A stretch of DNA of 37,276 bases from Longimicrobium sp. (GCA_036387335.1 DASVTZ010000033.1:1-37276); one strand, 5' to 3'; counted from the stretch's first letter, positions 6,053 through 10,683 are shown. The notes: a model not told the origin generated them from the letters alone. Made by a program: numbers and translations.

Positions 6053-6607
6053 ATGAGCCTCAAGTCCGATCGCTGGATCCGGCAGATGGCGCGCGAGCAC
6101 GCGATGATCGCACCCTTTGAGGACGCGCAGGTGAGGAAGGGGACGATCTCGTACGGCGTGTCGTCGTACGGCTACGACATGCGGGTGGCGCGCGAGTTCA
6201 AGATCTTCACCAACGTCAACAACGCCATCGTCGACCCCAAGAACTTCGACGACGCCTCGTTCGTGAACTTCGAGGGCGACGTGTGCATCGTCCCCCCCAA
6301 CTCGTTCGCGCTGGCGAGGTCGGTGGAGTACTTCCGCATCCCGCGCAACGTGCTCACACTTTGCGTCGGAAAAAGCACTTATGCCAGATGTGGCATAATC
6401 ACGAACGTAACTCCTTTCGAGCCAGAGTGGGAAGGGTTCGTGACGCTGGAGATCTCCAACACGACCCCGCTCCCGGCACGCATCTACGCCAACGAGGGGA
6501 TCGCGCAGGTGCTCTTTTTCGAGTCCGACGAGCCGTGCGAGGTCAGCTATGCGGATCGCAAGGGGAAGTACCAGGGGCAGGTGGGGGTGACGGTTCCGAG
6601 GCTGTGA
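6053..6607 (+). CDS. dcd: dCTP deaminase (possibly bifunctional)
   Basis: Dcd deaminates dCTP to dUTP for thymidylate synthesis. The 184-residue length fits the trimeric dUTPase-like family. The motif GKSTYAR (residues 106-112) supplies the phosphate-binding Ser and Arg. [17 protein letters not shown] (120-136) contains the catalytic glutamate at E133. The long form of this motif leaves open a bifunctional dCTP deaminase/dUTPase, which I cannot settle by eye. It is transcribed divergently from nuoA. Codons 101-124 (bases 6353-6424) are oddly rich in A/T-ending and rare codons (ACA, CTT, AAA, ACT, TAT, AGA, ATA, GTA, CCT, CCA). They contain a perfect 8-bp inverted repeat at 6379-6398. The surrounding gene has the usual G/C-ending codons. 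A hairpin-repeat cluster begins 8 bases after the stop. Confidence 0.93.
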
Positions 6608-6615
6608 TGCCCCCG

Positions 6616-6932
6616 GCGGTTGAAACCGCTGCAACAACCGCGGGAAGCCTGCCTTCGCAGGCTCCGGGGGGCGGGGGGTGGTGCCGGGCGGCGGGCACCG
6701 GCGTTACGCGACCGGGGGATGAATCCCCCGGCTGGAACCACGGGAAGCCCACTGAAGTGGGCTCTCGCGCCGCAGCCAGTCCGCGCAGGCGGACATTGCG
6801 TGGTTCCAGCGGCGAATTCATTCGCTCATGGACCCGCGCCCCTGCCCGCACCGGCCTTCGCGACGCGCCGGGATCTCGCCCGAGAGTCCGCGCAGGCGGA
6901 CTTTGTGCTGTTGTTGCCGCGAGTTCACTCGC
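6616..6932 (+). repeat. Modular hairpin repeat cluster A (four units)
   Basis: This gap holds four copies of one unit, each a small hairpin with a four-base TGAA-type loop, a linker of about 14-16 bases, then a 7-bp AG...CT hairpin. Units: 6616-6663 (+), 6712-6763 (+), 6778-6825 (-) and 6885-6932 (-). Stems differ between units but stay perfectly paired, apart from one terminal base in the third unit. Loops (TGAA or its complement TTCA; GCAG/CTGC) and linkers (GCAACAAC or CTGGAACCACG types) are conserved. The linkers of the second and third units, 6732-6742 and 6799-6809, are themselves an 11-bp inverted repeat that encloses two hairpins. No gene is seen in the 6608-7025 gap. Confidence 0.85.
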
Positions 6933-7025
6933 CAGGGCACACCCCAGGCACGGCCCACGGCCCGACTCCTGCCGAGGCCAGCGTAAACGGGCGTAGCCGC
7001 GCCGACATTGCATACCGCATCCACG

Positions 7026-7643
7026 ATGACCACCCAGCTCCCGGTGACACCCCAGCATCTCGACGCGATCCGCGAGATCGTGAACATCGGGGCCGGCCAC
7101 GCCGCCACCAACCTGTCGCAGCTCACGGGGCTTACCGTGATGATCTCCGTGCCGCGCATCCAGTGGGTGACGCGCGCGGCGCTCATCGCGTCGCTGCCCG
7201 GCGATGGCGAGCTGGTGCTGATCAGCGTACCCATCGTGGGGGTTTCCGAGGAGGGGGGCGAGCAGGCGGCGCTCGTGCTGGCCAAGGAGACCGCGCTGCG
7301 CATGGTGGCGCTGATGATGCGCCGCGACCCATCGCGCCATACCGAGATCGGGGCGCTGGAGCTCTCGGCGCTCAACGAGATGGGGAACATCGTGTGCGCG
7401 GCGTACGTGGGCGTGCTGGGGACGTTCCTCAACAAGGGCGTGATGATCGGCACCCCCGTCCTCACCGCGGGCGACCGGGAGCGGGTGGGGCGCGACGCGG
7501 TGGACGGGCTCCTGATCGAGACCGACTTCACCTTCCTGGATACGACGTTCGAAGGGGTCTTCGTCCTGAGCCACGCCGACGTCTCCTTCGCCTCGCTGCT
7601 GCGCGCGCTCGGCTTCAAGGACGTCGCCGAGAGCGCGTCCTGA
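7026..7643 (+). CDS. cheC: CheC-family phosphatase (CheY-P phosphatase-like)
   Basis: CheC proteins dephosphorylate CheY-P or related response regulators. Both family active-site motifs are present: E17-IV-N20 in REIVNIGAGHAATNLSQL, and a second E-x-x-N in ALNEMGNIVCAAY near residue 122. The product is about 205 residues, as expected for a two-site CheC. The ATG at 7026 gives MTTQ...; a TTG at 7008 in the same frame is possible but less likely. No chemotaxis genes are nearby, so the regulator it acts on is unknown. It is followed after 4 bases by glpD and probably shares a transcript with glpD and the potassium channel gene. The gene symbol names the family and does not show a role in chemotaxis. 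Confidence 0.85.
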   Translation: MTTQLPVTPQHLDAIREIVNIGAGHAATNLSQLTGLTVMISVPRIQWVTRAALIASLPGDGELVLISVPIVGVSEEGGEQAALVLAKETALRMVALMMRRDPSRHTEIGALELSALNEMGNIVCAAYVGVLGTFLNKGVMIGTPVLTAGDRERVGRDAVDGLLIETDFTFLDTTFEGVFVLSHADVSFASLLRALGFKDVAESAS

Positions 7644-7647
7644 TCCC

Positions 7648-9324
7648 GTGACTCCCTTCTCGGCCGAGGCGCGCACGGAGCACTGGAACGCGCTCGGGCG
7701 CGGGACGTGGGACCTGCTGGTGATCGGCGGGGGGATCACGGGCGCCGGGGTGGCGCGCGACGCGGCCGGGCGCGGGCTGCGGGTGGCGCTGGTGGACGCG
7801 GGCGACATCGCGCAGGGCACCAGCAGCCGCTCGTCGCGGCTGATCCACGGAGGGCTCCGCTACCTGGAGACCTTCGACTTCCGCCTCGTCTTCGAGGCCA
7901 GCGCGGAGCGGCGCCGCCTCCTGGCGCTGGCCCCGCACCTGGTGCACCCCCTCCCCTTCCTCTTCCCCGTCTTCCGCAACGGCCCCGTAGGGCGCCGCAA
8001 GCTGCAGGCGGGGATGTGGCTGTACGACCTCCTCTCGCTCTTTCGCAACATCTCGCGGCACCGCATGCTCTCGCCCAAGGCCGTCGCCGCCGCGGAGCCC
8101 GCGCTGCGCTCCGAGGGCGTGAGGGGCGCCGCGCTCTACTACGATGCATCGGTGGACGACGCGCGGCTGGCGCTGGCCAACGCGCGCGGCGCCCACGAGT
8201 CCGGCGCCGCCGTGGTGCCGCACGCGGAGGTGACCGGCTTCCTGCGCGAAGGGGCGCGGGTGGCGGGTGTGCGCGTGCGCGACCGGCTGGGCGGCGGCGT
8301 GGCGGAGGTGCGGGCGCGGGTAATCCTGAACGCCACGGGTCCCTGGAGCGACATCGTGCGGCGCCTGGCGGACCCCGGCACCAAGCCGCGGCTGCGCACC
8401 ACCAAGGGCGTCCACATCATGGTCCCCGCCGAGCGGCTGGGGAACCGCGGCGCCATCACCTTCCGCTCCCCCGTAGACGGGCGGGTGATGTTCGTGCTGC
8501 CGTGGGGCGACTTCTCGTACGTGGGGACCACCGACACCGACTTCCGCGGCTCCCCCGCCGACGTGCGCGCGGACGAGGCCGACGTGTGCTACCTGCTGGA
8601 GTCCGCCAACTCCATCTTCCCCGCCGCGCGGCTGACGGCGGAGGACGTGGTGAGCACCTGGGCCGGCCTGCGCCCCCTCCTCGCGCCGCTCGACACGGAG
8701 GGCGGCCGTTCGGAGAGCGCCACGTCGCGCGAGCACGAGATCTGGCAGGACCGTAGCGGACTCCTCAACATCGCGGGCGGCAAGCTGACCACCTACCGCG
8801 TGATGGCGGCCGAGGTGGCGGACGAGGCGGCGCGCATCCTCCGGGAACGGCACGGCGTCGCGAGCGGGAGCTCCCTCACCGAGGACCTTCCCCTTCCCGC
8901 GGCCCCGAGCGAGCCGTGGGACGACTTCGCCGCGCGCATCCGCCAAGAGGCCGCCGCCGTGGGTCTGGACGAAGCGGCCGCCACGCACCTTGCCCGCTTC
9001 TATGGCGACGAGGCGGGCGCGGTGCTGGACGAGATCCGGCGCGAACCCGAGCTGGGCACGCGGCTGATCCCCGGGCTCCCCTACCTGCGAGCCGAGATCG
9101 CGCGGGCGGTTCGCTGCGAGATGGCGATGACGCTGGAGGACCTGCTGGTGCGCCGCCTCCACATCTTCTACGAGGCGCGCGACGGCGGCCTTTCCGTGGC
9201 GCGCAAGGTGGCGGAGCGGATGGCGGACGAGCCGGGGATCGGCTGGAGCGCGGCGGAGATCGAGCGCCAGGTGGAGCACTACCGCCGCGCGGTGGAGGCG
9301 ACGCGCGGCTTCGGCGCCGCCTGA
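7648..9324 (+). CDS. glpD: Aerobic glycerol-3-phosphate dehydrogenase (FAD)
   Basis: GlpD oxidises sn-glycerol-3-phosphate to dihydroxyacetone phosphate and passes electrons to quinone at the inner face of the membrane. The N-terminal FAD-binding motif VIGGGITGAG lies at residues 25-34. It is followed by the family signature RSSRLIHGGLRYLE at about 60-73, and a C-terminal DAO_C-type domain follows the IAGGKLTTYR segment. The length of 558 residues is normal. The start is GTG at 7648, four bases after the cheC stop, with no separate ribosome site, suggesting translational coupling. No glpK or glpF is visible. The pairing with a CheC protein and a K+ channel is unusual. Confidence 0.94.
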   Translation: MTPFSAEARTEHWNALGRGTWDLLVIGGGITGAGVARDAAGRGLRVALVDAGDIAQGTSSRSSRLIHGGLRYLETFDFRLVFEASAERRRLLALAPHLVHPLPFLFPVFRNGPVGRRKLQAGMWLYDLLSLFRNISRHRMLSPKAVAAAEPALRSEGVRGAALYYDASVDDARLALANARGAHESGAAVVPHAEVTGFLREGARVAGVRVRDRLGGGVAEVRARVILNATGPWSDIVRRLADPGTKPRLRTTKGVHIMVPAERLGNRGAITFRSPVDGRVMFVLPWGDFSYVGTTDTDFRGSPADVRADEADVCYLLESANSIFPAARLTAEDVVSTWAGLRPLLAPLDTEGGRSESATSREHEIWQDRSGLLNIAGGKLTTYRVMAAEVADEAARILRERHGVASGSSLTEDLPLPAAPSEPWDDFAARIRQEAAAVGLDEAAATHLARFYGDEAGAVLDEIRREPELGTRLIPGLPYLRAEIARAVRCEMAMTLEDLLVRRLHIFYEARDGGLSVARKVAERMADEPGIGWSAAEIERQVEHYRRAVEATRGFGAA

Positions 9325-9327
9325 GCC

Positions 9328-10419
9328 GTGATCCGGCCCGCGCGCCCCTACCCCGTCGACCGGCGCAAGCGGGCGCGGAAGGCATCGCTCCGCTACCGGA
9401 TCAGCTCGGCCGCGCAGCACCCACTCCGCAGGCTGCAGATCGCACTTCTGGCCCTCTTCCTCGTCATGGCGGGGAGCACCCTCTTCTACCGCTTCGTGGA
9501 GGGGATGGGGTGGGTCGATGCGCTGTACATGACGGTGATCACCGTCGCCACGGTGGGGTTCGGCGAAACGGAGCCGCTGTCGCAGGGCGGGCGCCTCTTC
9601 ACCATCGGGCTGATCATGGTGGGGGTGGGCGTGGGCGCGTGGGCCGCCGGGAACGCGATCGAGGTGATGCTGGGGCAGACGTACTGGCTGACCGTGGAGA
9701 GGCGGAAGATGACGCAGCGCATCGAGAACCTGAGCGACCACTTCGTCGTCTGCGGCTACGGGCGGCTGGGCACCCGCATCGTGCGCGACCTGATGGTGCG
9801 CGGCGAGTCGTTCCTGGTGATCGACGAGAAGGAGGAGTTCGAGGAGCGCCTCCTCGCGGAGGGGATCCCCCACCTGATCGGCGACGCCACACACGACGGC
9901 GTCCTGGAGGCGGCCGGCGTGGCGCGGGCGCGCGGGCTGGTGGCCGCCCTGGACTCCGACGCCAACAACGTCCTCACGGTCCTCACCGCGCGCGGCCTCA
10001 ACCCAAAGCTCCTCGTCGTTTCGCGCGCCAACAGCGACGCCAGCGAGTCGAAGCTGCGCCGCGCCGGCGCGGACCGCGTGGTCACCCCCGAGGACATCGG
10101 GGGGCACCGGCTTGCGCTCGCCCTCCTGCGCCCCGCCGTGCACGACCTGTTCACCGAGATGTTCAGCTTCGGGATGAACGTGGCGGTCGACGTGGGGCAG
10201 ATCACCATCGCCCCCGACTCCCCTTTCGCGGGCCAGACGGTGGCGCGCTGCGACCTGCGCCGCATGCGCAACGTGAGCATCCTGGCCATCCGCGACACCG
10301 CCGGCGCCTTTGCCCTCAACCCCGACGCCCAGCGCGTCCTCAGCGCCGGGGAGACGCTGATCGTGATCGGGCCTGCCGAGGCCGTGTACGAGCTGGAGGC
10401 GATGTACGGGGGGGATTGA
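9328..10419 (+). CDS. Two-TM potassium channel with RCK (TrkA-N/TrkA-C) domain
   Basis: This is a ligand-gated K+ channel subunit in the MthK/Kch style. It has two membrane helices (about 36-57 and 91-112) around a pore loop with the selectivity filter TVGFGE (75-80). The cytosolic TrkA-N Rossmann domain follows, with VVCGYGRLG at about 140-148, and a TrkA-C domain ends the 363-residue protein near residue 360. A basic N-terminal tail of about 35 residues precedes the first helix. The filter is GFG rather than GYG, which occurs in this family. The GTG start is 3 bases after the glpD stop, so the two genes are probably cotranslated. It is the last gene of the plus-strand unit and is followed by hairpin repeat cluster B. 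Confidence 0.92.
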   Translation: MIRPARPYPVDRRKRARKASLRYRISSAAQHPLRRLQIALLALFLVMAGSTLFYRFVEGMGWVDALYMTVITVATVGFGETEPLSQGGRLFTIGLIMVGVGVGAWAAGNAIEVMLGQTYWLTVERRKMTQRIENLSDHFVVCGYGRLGTRIVRDLMVRGESFLVIDEKEEFEERLLAEGIPHLIGDATHDGVLEAAGVARARGLVAALDSDANNVLTVLTARGLNPKLLVVSRANSDASESKLRRAGADRVVTPEDIGGHRLALALLRPAVHDLFTEMFSFGMNVAVDVGQITIAPDSPFAGQTVARCDLRRMRNVSILAIRDTAGAFALNPDAQRVLSAGETLIVIGPAEAVYELEAMYGGD

Positions 10420-10463
10420 GGGGGGGCGGGATTGGCCAGGTGGGCTGGGCCGGTTCCGGTTTA

Positions 10464-10683
10464 CCGGGGGCTAAAGCCCCCGGCTGGAACTATGGGAAGA
10501 CCGCTGAAGCGGTCTGCGAGACCGCCACCAGTCCGCGCAGGCGGACTTCGCGCGTTTCCAGCCGCGAATTCATTCGCTCCTGGTGCGGACCTCACGCCGC
10601 ACAGAGTTGGAAGCGCCGAACGAATCTCGCCCCCGAGTCCGCGCAGGCGGACTTTGTGCTGTTGTTGCCGCGAGTTCACTCGC
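10464..10683 (+). repeat. Modular hairpin repeat cluster B (three units)
   Basis: Three units of the same family as cluster A: 10464-10515 (+), 10530-10577 (-) and 10636-10683 (-). The first hairpin reads CCGGGGGC-TAAA-GCCCCCGG and the second AGACCGC-TGAA-GCGGTCT. Compared with AGCCCAC-TGAA-GTGGGCT in cluster A, several stem positions differ and every change is matched on the other side. The last unit is nearly base-identical to the last unit of cluster A. The 10420-10808 gap contains this cluster, a terminator-like hairpin (10721-10753) and no gene. Confidence 0.85.

Follow-up and report, generated by a model that had tools for sequence, protein, structure and literature searches.

Two-hairpin repeats of Longimicrobium as probable REPIN-like elements of a Y1 transposase clade sister to TnpA_Y1 subclass 1.2

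The short hairpin units of Longimicrobium sp. described here are very probably non-autonomous elements of the REP/REPIN type, moved as folded single-stranded DNA by the Y1 transposase whose genes they flank. The observed basis of this conclusion comprises the structure and copy number of the units, their position on either side of transposase genes and co-occurrence with them, the co-variation of ends and enzyme, and the fact that one site holds a whole pair in some genomes and lacks it in others. What we infer is that the enzyme binds and cleaves the ends, that movement takes a single-strand route, and that the CCNG foot plays a role. The window analyzed is a stretch of 37,276 nucleotides (GCA_036387335.1 DASVTZ010000033.1:1-37276); its units are collected in Table 1, and G and L numbers below denote genomes and loci, respectively.

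Table 1. Units and clusters in the window; HP1 and HP2, first and second hairpin of a unit.
Feature	Position	Strand	Type	Description
Cluster 1	6613-6936		b+ g+ a- b-	Four-unit composite of ~325 bp in the dcd-cheC intergenic space
Unit 1	6616-6663	+	b	HP1 GCGGT-TGAA-ACCGC; linker TGCAACAACCGCGGGA; HP2 AGCCTGC-CTTC-GCAGGCT
Unit 2	6712-6763	+	g	HP1 CCGGGGGA-TGAA-TCCCCCGG; linker CTGGAACCACGGGA; HP2 AGCCCAC-TGAA-GTGGGCT
Unit 3	6778-6825	-	a	HP1 GCGAA-TGAA-TTCGC; HP2 with one foot mismatch (T.T)
Unit 4	6885-6932	-	b	HP1 GCGAG-TGAA-CTCGC; HP2 AGTCCGC-CTGC-GCGGACT
Cluster 2	10464-10683		g+ a- b-	Three-unit composite corresponding to units 2-4 of cluster 1
Unit 5	10464-10515	+	g	HP1 CCGGGGGC-TAAA-GCCCCCGG; HP2 AGACCGC-TGAA-GCGGTCT
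Unit 6	10530-10577	-	a	Convergent with unit 5; 14 nt between HP2 arms
Unit 7	10636-10683	-	b	48-nt identity to unit 4

The first-pass annotation described seven units of one two-hairpin plan, oriented ++-- in one cluster and +-- in the other, and plan, places, and orientations were all confirmed in the sequence. Each unit has 48-52 nt. HP1 is a stem of 5-8 bp with a TGAA or TAAA loop, the linker is 16 nt long (17 nt if the G-rich stems are taken as 5 bp), and HP2 is a 7-bp stem that begins with AG, ends with CT, and encloses a 4-nt loop. Homology of unit 1 to other copies begins at 6613, and units 2 and 3 are convergent, with HP2 arms 14 nt apart. Folded as single-stranded DNA, all seven units are more stable than the average of their shuffles (z from -1.7 to -6.0), and the two hairpins are exactly the best fold in five of the seven; at 6613-6663 and 10529-10580, pairing of the linker is narrowly more stable than HP1.

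The same structure is abundant in this 5.8-Mb Gemmatimonadota genome. The HP2 core alone, with at most three mismatches, occurs at 108 places, compared to 6-10 for the reversed pattern, and a linker-only pattern (the fixed linker bases and AAG, with stems ignored) has 251 matches, compared to 15 for the control. As the first-pass annotation had proposed, a covariance model was built and searched against the genome, and further copies were found. The model, R1, comprises 12 pairs and was built from 17 copies of this genome alone; one stem base was trimmed in rows with G-rich stems, and pairing was counted on untrimmed copies. It matched at least 152 copies, a lower bound, as about 150 candidates were scored.

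Compensation in the stems was tested on copies chosen by the linker pattern, blind to the stems. This yielded 135 distinct places, of which eight lack hairpins, as expected for chance matches, and 127 are true units. Among the 1605 stem cells of these units, 1558 are Watson-Crick pairs, five are wobble pairs, and 42 are mismatched. HP2 is fully paired in 104 of the 127 copies (one with a G-T pair) and HP1 is fully Watson-Crick in about 113; the inner pair of HP1 occurs as G-C, A-T, T-A, or C-G, and the third pair of HP2 as T-A, C-G, or A-T. Thus, the claim that bases change on both sides of the stems together is borne out by strong but not absolute compensation: a subfamily with AGGCGGC/GCCGGCT stems and near variants, about 17 of the 127 copies, carries a fixed uncompensated mismatch at pair 3 of HP2. 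This subfamily has multiplied in the genome, which counts against the REPIN-like interpretation. The earlier rejection of a simple decaying repeat stands, as does the claim of conserved folding. Across phyla, 98-99% of aligned stem positions are paired, and covariation reaches 0.486 and 0.504, compared to 0.173 and 0.180 after shuffling and at most 0.063 for slid structures; these alignments are fitted to the model, and the shuffles keep relatedness in. Outside HP1, conservation reaches the background level at position -5. The HP1 foot is CCNG in the 5-bp type and CRCC in the G type, and the GT[AG]G foot of canonical REPs is absent.

The cause of this covariation deserves separate consideration. 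The initial interpretation was selection on folding, either as RNA or as single-stranded DNA; conserved folding is upheld, and the near-zero number of G-U intermediates makes DNA the form to which the signal points. Wobble pairs account for 0.3% of stem cells in the genome (5/1605) and 0.8-0.9% across phyla, that is, 11% and 31-41%, respectively, of the cells that are not Watson-Crick. Selected RNA helices usually have many more G-U pairs. The rarity of wobble pairs therefore favors constraint on, or correction of, DNA hairpins over RNA. Correction alone is a tentative but serious possibility: stem changes would result from palindrome self-correction or template switching in hairpins at replication rather than from selection on folding, and could add to the pairing signal without selection. 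It predicts what is seen, namely that nearly every change replaces one Watson-Crick pair by another and that intermediates are very rare. However, it leaves unexplained the conserved loops and linker, the two-hairpin plan common to several phyla, and the match between units and transposase lineages. This explanation concerns only the cause of covariation and overlaps with the mobile-element interpretation, as a self-correcting element may still be mobile; self-correction may act alongside selection, and the present data do not separate the two.

That the units are instead a structured RNA (a small RNA, mRNA stabilizer, attenuator, or terminator) spread between genes and kept for its RNA fold seems very improbable. 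The hairpins do fold well, are intergenic in the window, and conserve their two-hairpin shape, and transcription of REPs is frequent elsewhere, where they can function at the RNA level (PMC3733652). Apart from the shortage of wobble pairs, the positions of the units argue against this reading: they occupy both strands, form convergent pairs, and stand on either side of a transposase gene. An Rfam scan of the window region gave nothing over threshold, the resemblances to CRISPR-DR28 (at 10529-10552) and Acido-Lenti-1 being sub-threshold and limited to single hairpins. Intrinsic terminators were rejected, as only two terminator-like matches fall within units, both weak, and no U tract belongs to the hairpins. 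A secondary RNA effect may exist at some loci. In other genomes, the Rfam model RF01356 (CRISPR-DR28; consensus GGCAAAGCCCGCCUGCGCGGGCUA) matches HP2 at gathering score at three loci of Cyanobacteriota and Chloroflexota (L131, L115, and L103), and such matches may be misannotated as CRISPR repeats. A CRISPR array was likewise rejected, because the units are not evenly spaced direct repeats.

A protein whose presence tracks the element, which the first-pass annotation had suggested looking for, was found in the form of a Y1 (HUH, IS200-like) transposase. This genome encodes two such proteins, L001 with an in-frame TAG and L002 intact, and both genes lie between convergent units with HP2 facing the gene. 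Among the 28 full-length Y1 genes in 21 genomes of the family, 26 have R1 units on both sides. The exceptions are L064, whose product is a canonical member of subclass 1.2, and L071, which belongs to the clade but is decayed and has no good flanking unit; L001 and L088 are decayed as well. R1 matches reach saturation in G001 and throughout the genus (ten genomes), are numerous in G007, and are fewer or absent in the remaining genomes. Of the 15 family genomes that contain 10 or more units, 13 have a Y1 gene, compared to none of the six that contain three or fewer; the element-rich G010 and G006, in which no Y1 gene was seen, are both incomplete MAGs. Class-wide, under stricter filters, seven of 149 genomes have at least two R1 matches, and all seven are among the 36 with Y1 (chance about 3e-5 by the hypergeometric test, relatedness ignored). 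G128 and G160 each have a weak R1 match within about 140 bp of a Y1 gene. Genomes contain from zero to six Y1 genes, mostly divergent, and near-identical copies of a multi-copy autonomous IS were not seen among them. At three loci from two genomes (L079, L086, and L088; G009 and G017), the units are enlarged to as much as 71 nt, with HP2 extended by an inner hairpin, and this feature is mostly common to the left and right ends.

The transposases match Pfam PF01797 and, by profile, the structures of ISHp608, ISDra2, and other Y1 transposases in PDB; the NCBIfam REP_Tyr_transpos model scores far below its cut-off and the IS200 model above. They carry the DH[IV]H, WQ, and Y-xxx-Q..HH motifs and lack the class-2 motif Y-xxx-NP. 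In the phylogenetic tree, which rests on a short alignment and leaves many forks without resolution, 98 clade members group together with moderate support (87/80), canonical subclass-1.2 proteins are placed beside them (100/88), and IS200/IS605 transposases are apart (100/99). Proteins of the clade end soon after HH...(W/L)E or extend without a DERY-type tail, and the C-terminal tail of subclass 1.2 (...DERYVWD or similar) was found only in the controls L064, L276, and L277. Full membership in subclass 1.2 was therefore ruled out by the missing tail and by the control loci without units.

Unit sequences follow the sequences of the transposases that they flank. Two units that flank the same gene, left and right, resemble each other more than units from different genes do, both in the family (0.886 v 0.622) and outside it (0.782 v 0.656), with p = 1e-4 in each case. 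Distances between units track distances between proteins (Mantel r 0.37-0.62, p = 5e-4; for left units, 0.41 in the family and 0.62 elsewhere). L001 groups with L070 and L078, from G016 and G013, whose left flanks are identical to units 4 and 7 of the window (48/48 for unit 4). L002 groups with L066 and L080, and all three are flanked by G-rich units of the subtype seen in units 2 and 5. Judged by sequence, the b-type units of the window match the L001/L070/L078 lineage and the g-type units match the L002 lineage.

A similar arrangement was observed in other phyla. A scan with the transposase alignment A6, in which each species was represented by a single genome, gave at least 79 loci; those listed belong mostly to Cyanobacteriota and Chloroflexota, with others in Gemmatimonadota, Armatimonadota, and single MAGs labeled Actinomycetota, Omnitrophota, and Poribacteria, the phylum of MAG loci being the label as given. 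Outside Gemmatimonadota, R1 units lie within 450 bp of 72 of the 74 listed Y1 genes, on both sides of 64, and form a convergent pair at 57; at the two missed loci, L101 and L155, double hairpins are visible by eye. A model-free alignment of the left flank with the inverted right flank beats 20 shuffles in about 69 of the 79 listed loci. Twelve genomes of these loci have from eight to more than 150 R1 matches. Nine control Y1 loci, three of the subclass-1.2 type and six of IS200/IS605, have no R1 match. Spread by plasmids was rejected, as a cyanobacterial query found no relative above 36% identity among 72,556 plasmid records. The Planktothrix form of the element has 46 nt in L112; the repeats RR1-7 of the Planktothrix mcy cluster are GC-rich stem-loops of matching length, 43-46 bp (PMC4766695).

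The arrangement of units suggests that the mobile entity is a pair. At the loci examined, units occur as singles, convergent pairs, and three- and four-unit composites, and the HP2 arms of a convergent pair are 14-15 or 23-25 nt apart. The composite of cluster 1 recurs in the genome and the genus, whole or as sub-versions, with at most 84% identity elsewhere, and its inner pair is 81% identical to that of cluster 2. The four-unit element was ruled out as the sole mobile unit, because one-, two-, and three-unit versions also recur. The seven units in two clusters exist as initially described; a better description of the clusters is that they are composites, built from a mobile unit that is a convergent pair, in which two transposase-specific subfamilies are mixed. 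Most pairs in the genome are hybrids of two subtypes (b with g, or a with g), which a one-enzyme model does not simply predict. Cluster 1 lies between dcd and a CheC-like gene and cluster 2 after a TrkA/ion-channel gene; nothing suggestive of a functional link to these neighbors was seen. At L154 (Oscillatoria sp. PCC 10802) and L166 (a Chloroflexi MAG), convergent pairs are repeated in tandem beside the transposase gene with periods of about 217 and 160 nt, respectively; thus, pairs can also amplify locally.

Comparison of orthologous sites demonstrates turnover of pairs. On contig C118, this genome (G000) has a convergent b pair of 157 bp where its nearest relative, G013, has 7 bp, with flanks 93-94% identical; at the same spot, the ~33 bp of G010 contain no unit, and G016 carries another pair, of the g type. 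Whole pairs were thus gained or lost at this site, with direction and mechanism not given by the data. Neither a target sequence nor an exact excision product can be read from this comparison, because the difference between an empty and a filled site slightly exceeds the pair itself. The dcd-cheC site contains the composite in this genome, G013, and G010, a different pair in G011, and no composite in G016, G014, G017, G009, G012, or G015. The a- unit of cluster 2 is missing from the G013 ortholog. An exact empty site was found for neither cluster of the window, as relatives without the cluster have unrelated spacers. The adjacent dCTP deaminase gene is intact in the window (6053-6607) and split in G016 by an insert of about 1.2 kb (G016:C230:70700-71300, L182, and 72248-72579), the end of which resembles an intein end.

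These site differences, together with the match between unit and transposase sequences, argue for transposase-driven turnover, so that a host function of the units as chromosome-organizing or protein-binding sites, with the transposase only their past source, is scarcely credible, despite hundreds of copies beside few and partly decayed transposase genes and the precedent of E. coli BIMEs, at which gyrase or IHF binds.

The interpretation of the units as REPIN-like elements can be formulated as follows. Each end, read 5' to 3', consists of a C-C-N-G foot, HP1, the linker, and HP2, and two ends that face each other (HP1-HP2 > spacer < HP2-HP1) would form the mobile unit, which is also the case for REPINs. 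In the autonomous form, the transposase gene would replace the spacer. The enzyme is a single-domain HUH/Y1 protein (IS200/IS605-like TnpA), and its clade is the sister of TnpA_Y1 subclass 1.2. If it works as IS608, ISDra2, and E. coli TnpA_REP do, it would bind the folded single strand of an end, cut it, and rejoin it. The pair would be excised or copied as single-stranded DNA and then pasted elsewhere. Stems would be kept because the transposase reads the folded shape of DNA. The window mixes two subfamilies, with b-type units matching the L001/L070/L078 lineage, of which this genome has L001, and g-type units the intact L002 lineage. A broader conclusion, on which we are evenly divided, is that this is a separate, old class of single-strand DNA transposons, in which a clade sister to subclass 1.2 reads two-hairpin ends, REPIN-like pairs have spread in Gemmatimonadota, Cyanobacteriota, Chloroflexota, Armatimonadota, and others, and hybrid pairs of two lineages have arisen in some genomes.

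The first-pass annotation knew of no named family with this exact plan. For the exact plan this holds in the searchable literature, whereas the kind is known, both as REP/REPIN with RAYT/TnpA_Y1 and as TIRtrons with "double palindromic TIRs." REPs with the RAYT transposase (TnpA_REP) of Enterobacteria and Pseudomonas (subclasses 2.2 and 2.5) are likewise short palindromic extragenic repeats with hundreds of copies in inverted pairs, singles, doublets, and clusters, flanking a low-copy Y1 HUH transposase gene of matching subtype (PMC6006769; GTAG/CGTC REPs and TIRtrons, PMC3733652; TnpA_REP biochemistry, PMC8266576). The present units differ by two hairpins with a 16-nt linker and a CCNG instead of a GT[AG]G foot, and their transposase by the class-1 motif Y-xxx-Q..HH instead of Y-xxx-NP. 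As in REPINs (PMC3116915), the inverted doublet is gained or lost, a whole pair being present or absent at one site. Closest in the tree is subclass 1.2, with the same DH[IV]H, WQ, and Y-xxx-Q--HH motifs, occurrence in Cyanobacteria, and few copies per genome; it is described without REPs and, in its canonical form, with a C-terminal tail (Quentin et al., 2018; PMC6006769). In contrast, the present clade is flanked by units and lacks the tail, and the canonical control genes have no flanking units.

Other known systems are similar in part. TIRtrons with "double palindromic TIRs" have a Y1 transposase flanked by two-palindrome repeats, some of them genomically repeated, as far as the account in figure 9 of Di Nocera et al. 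(2013; PMC3733652) goes; the likeness to the present ends is by description only, and most TIRYTs are placed in subclass 2.1, a class other than the present one. Atypical structures of TnpA_Y1 class 3, with a CnGA foot and about 600 copies in Solibacter (PMC6006769), are also high-copy non-GTAG hairpins around a class-1-like Y1 gene, and are set apart, by description, by the Y-xxxx-Q motif and the foot. IS200/IS605 elements (IS608 and ISDra2) share the HUH/Y1 transposase, by profile match, and hairpins near the ends, which they recognize as single-stranded DNA; for the present element such recognition is a proposal by analogy. Unlike them, it has two hairpins per end, ends that are mostly non-autonomous copies, and no high-identity multi-copy autonomous IS. 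A text search for sequence strings of the element, with subscription papers and figures outside its coverage, gave no paper on the element and one chance match to a primer. Provisionally, the kind is known, and the two-hairpin architecture, the transposase clade, and its breadth appear undescribed.

The spread of REPs is an open question, and transposase-driven movement of a REP has scarcely been observed directly. The elements analyzed here would constitute a second system with the logic of REPs, with another end structure, another transposase class, and a distribution in phyla for which few REPs have been described. They provide many cognate pairs of units and transposases that can be compared, and among close relatives at least one site occurs in empty, filled, and differently filled states. 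They also offer a candidate substrate for subclass-1.2-like transposases, listed as REP-free, and would account for an intergenic repeat that is frequent in numerous cyanobacterial and Chloroflexota genomes.
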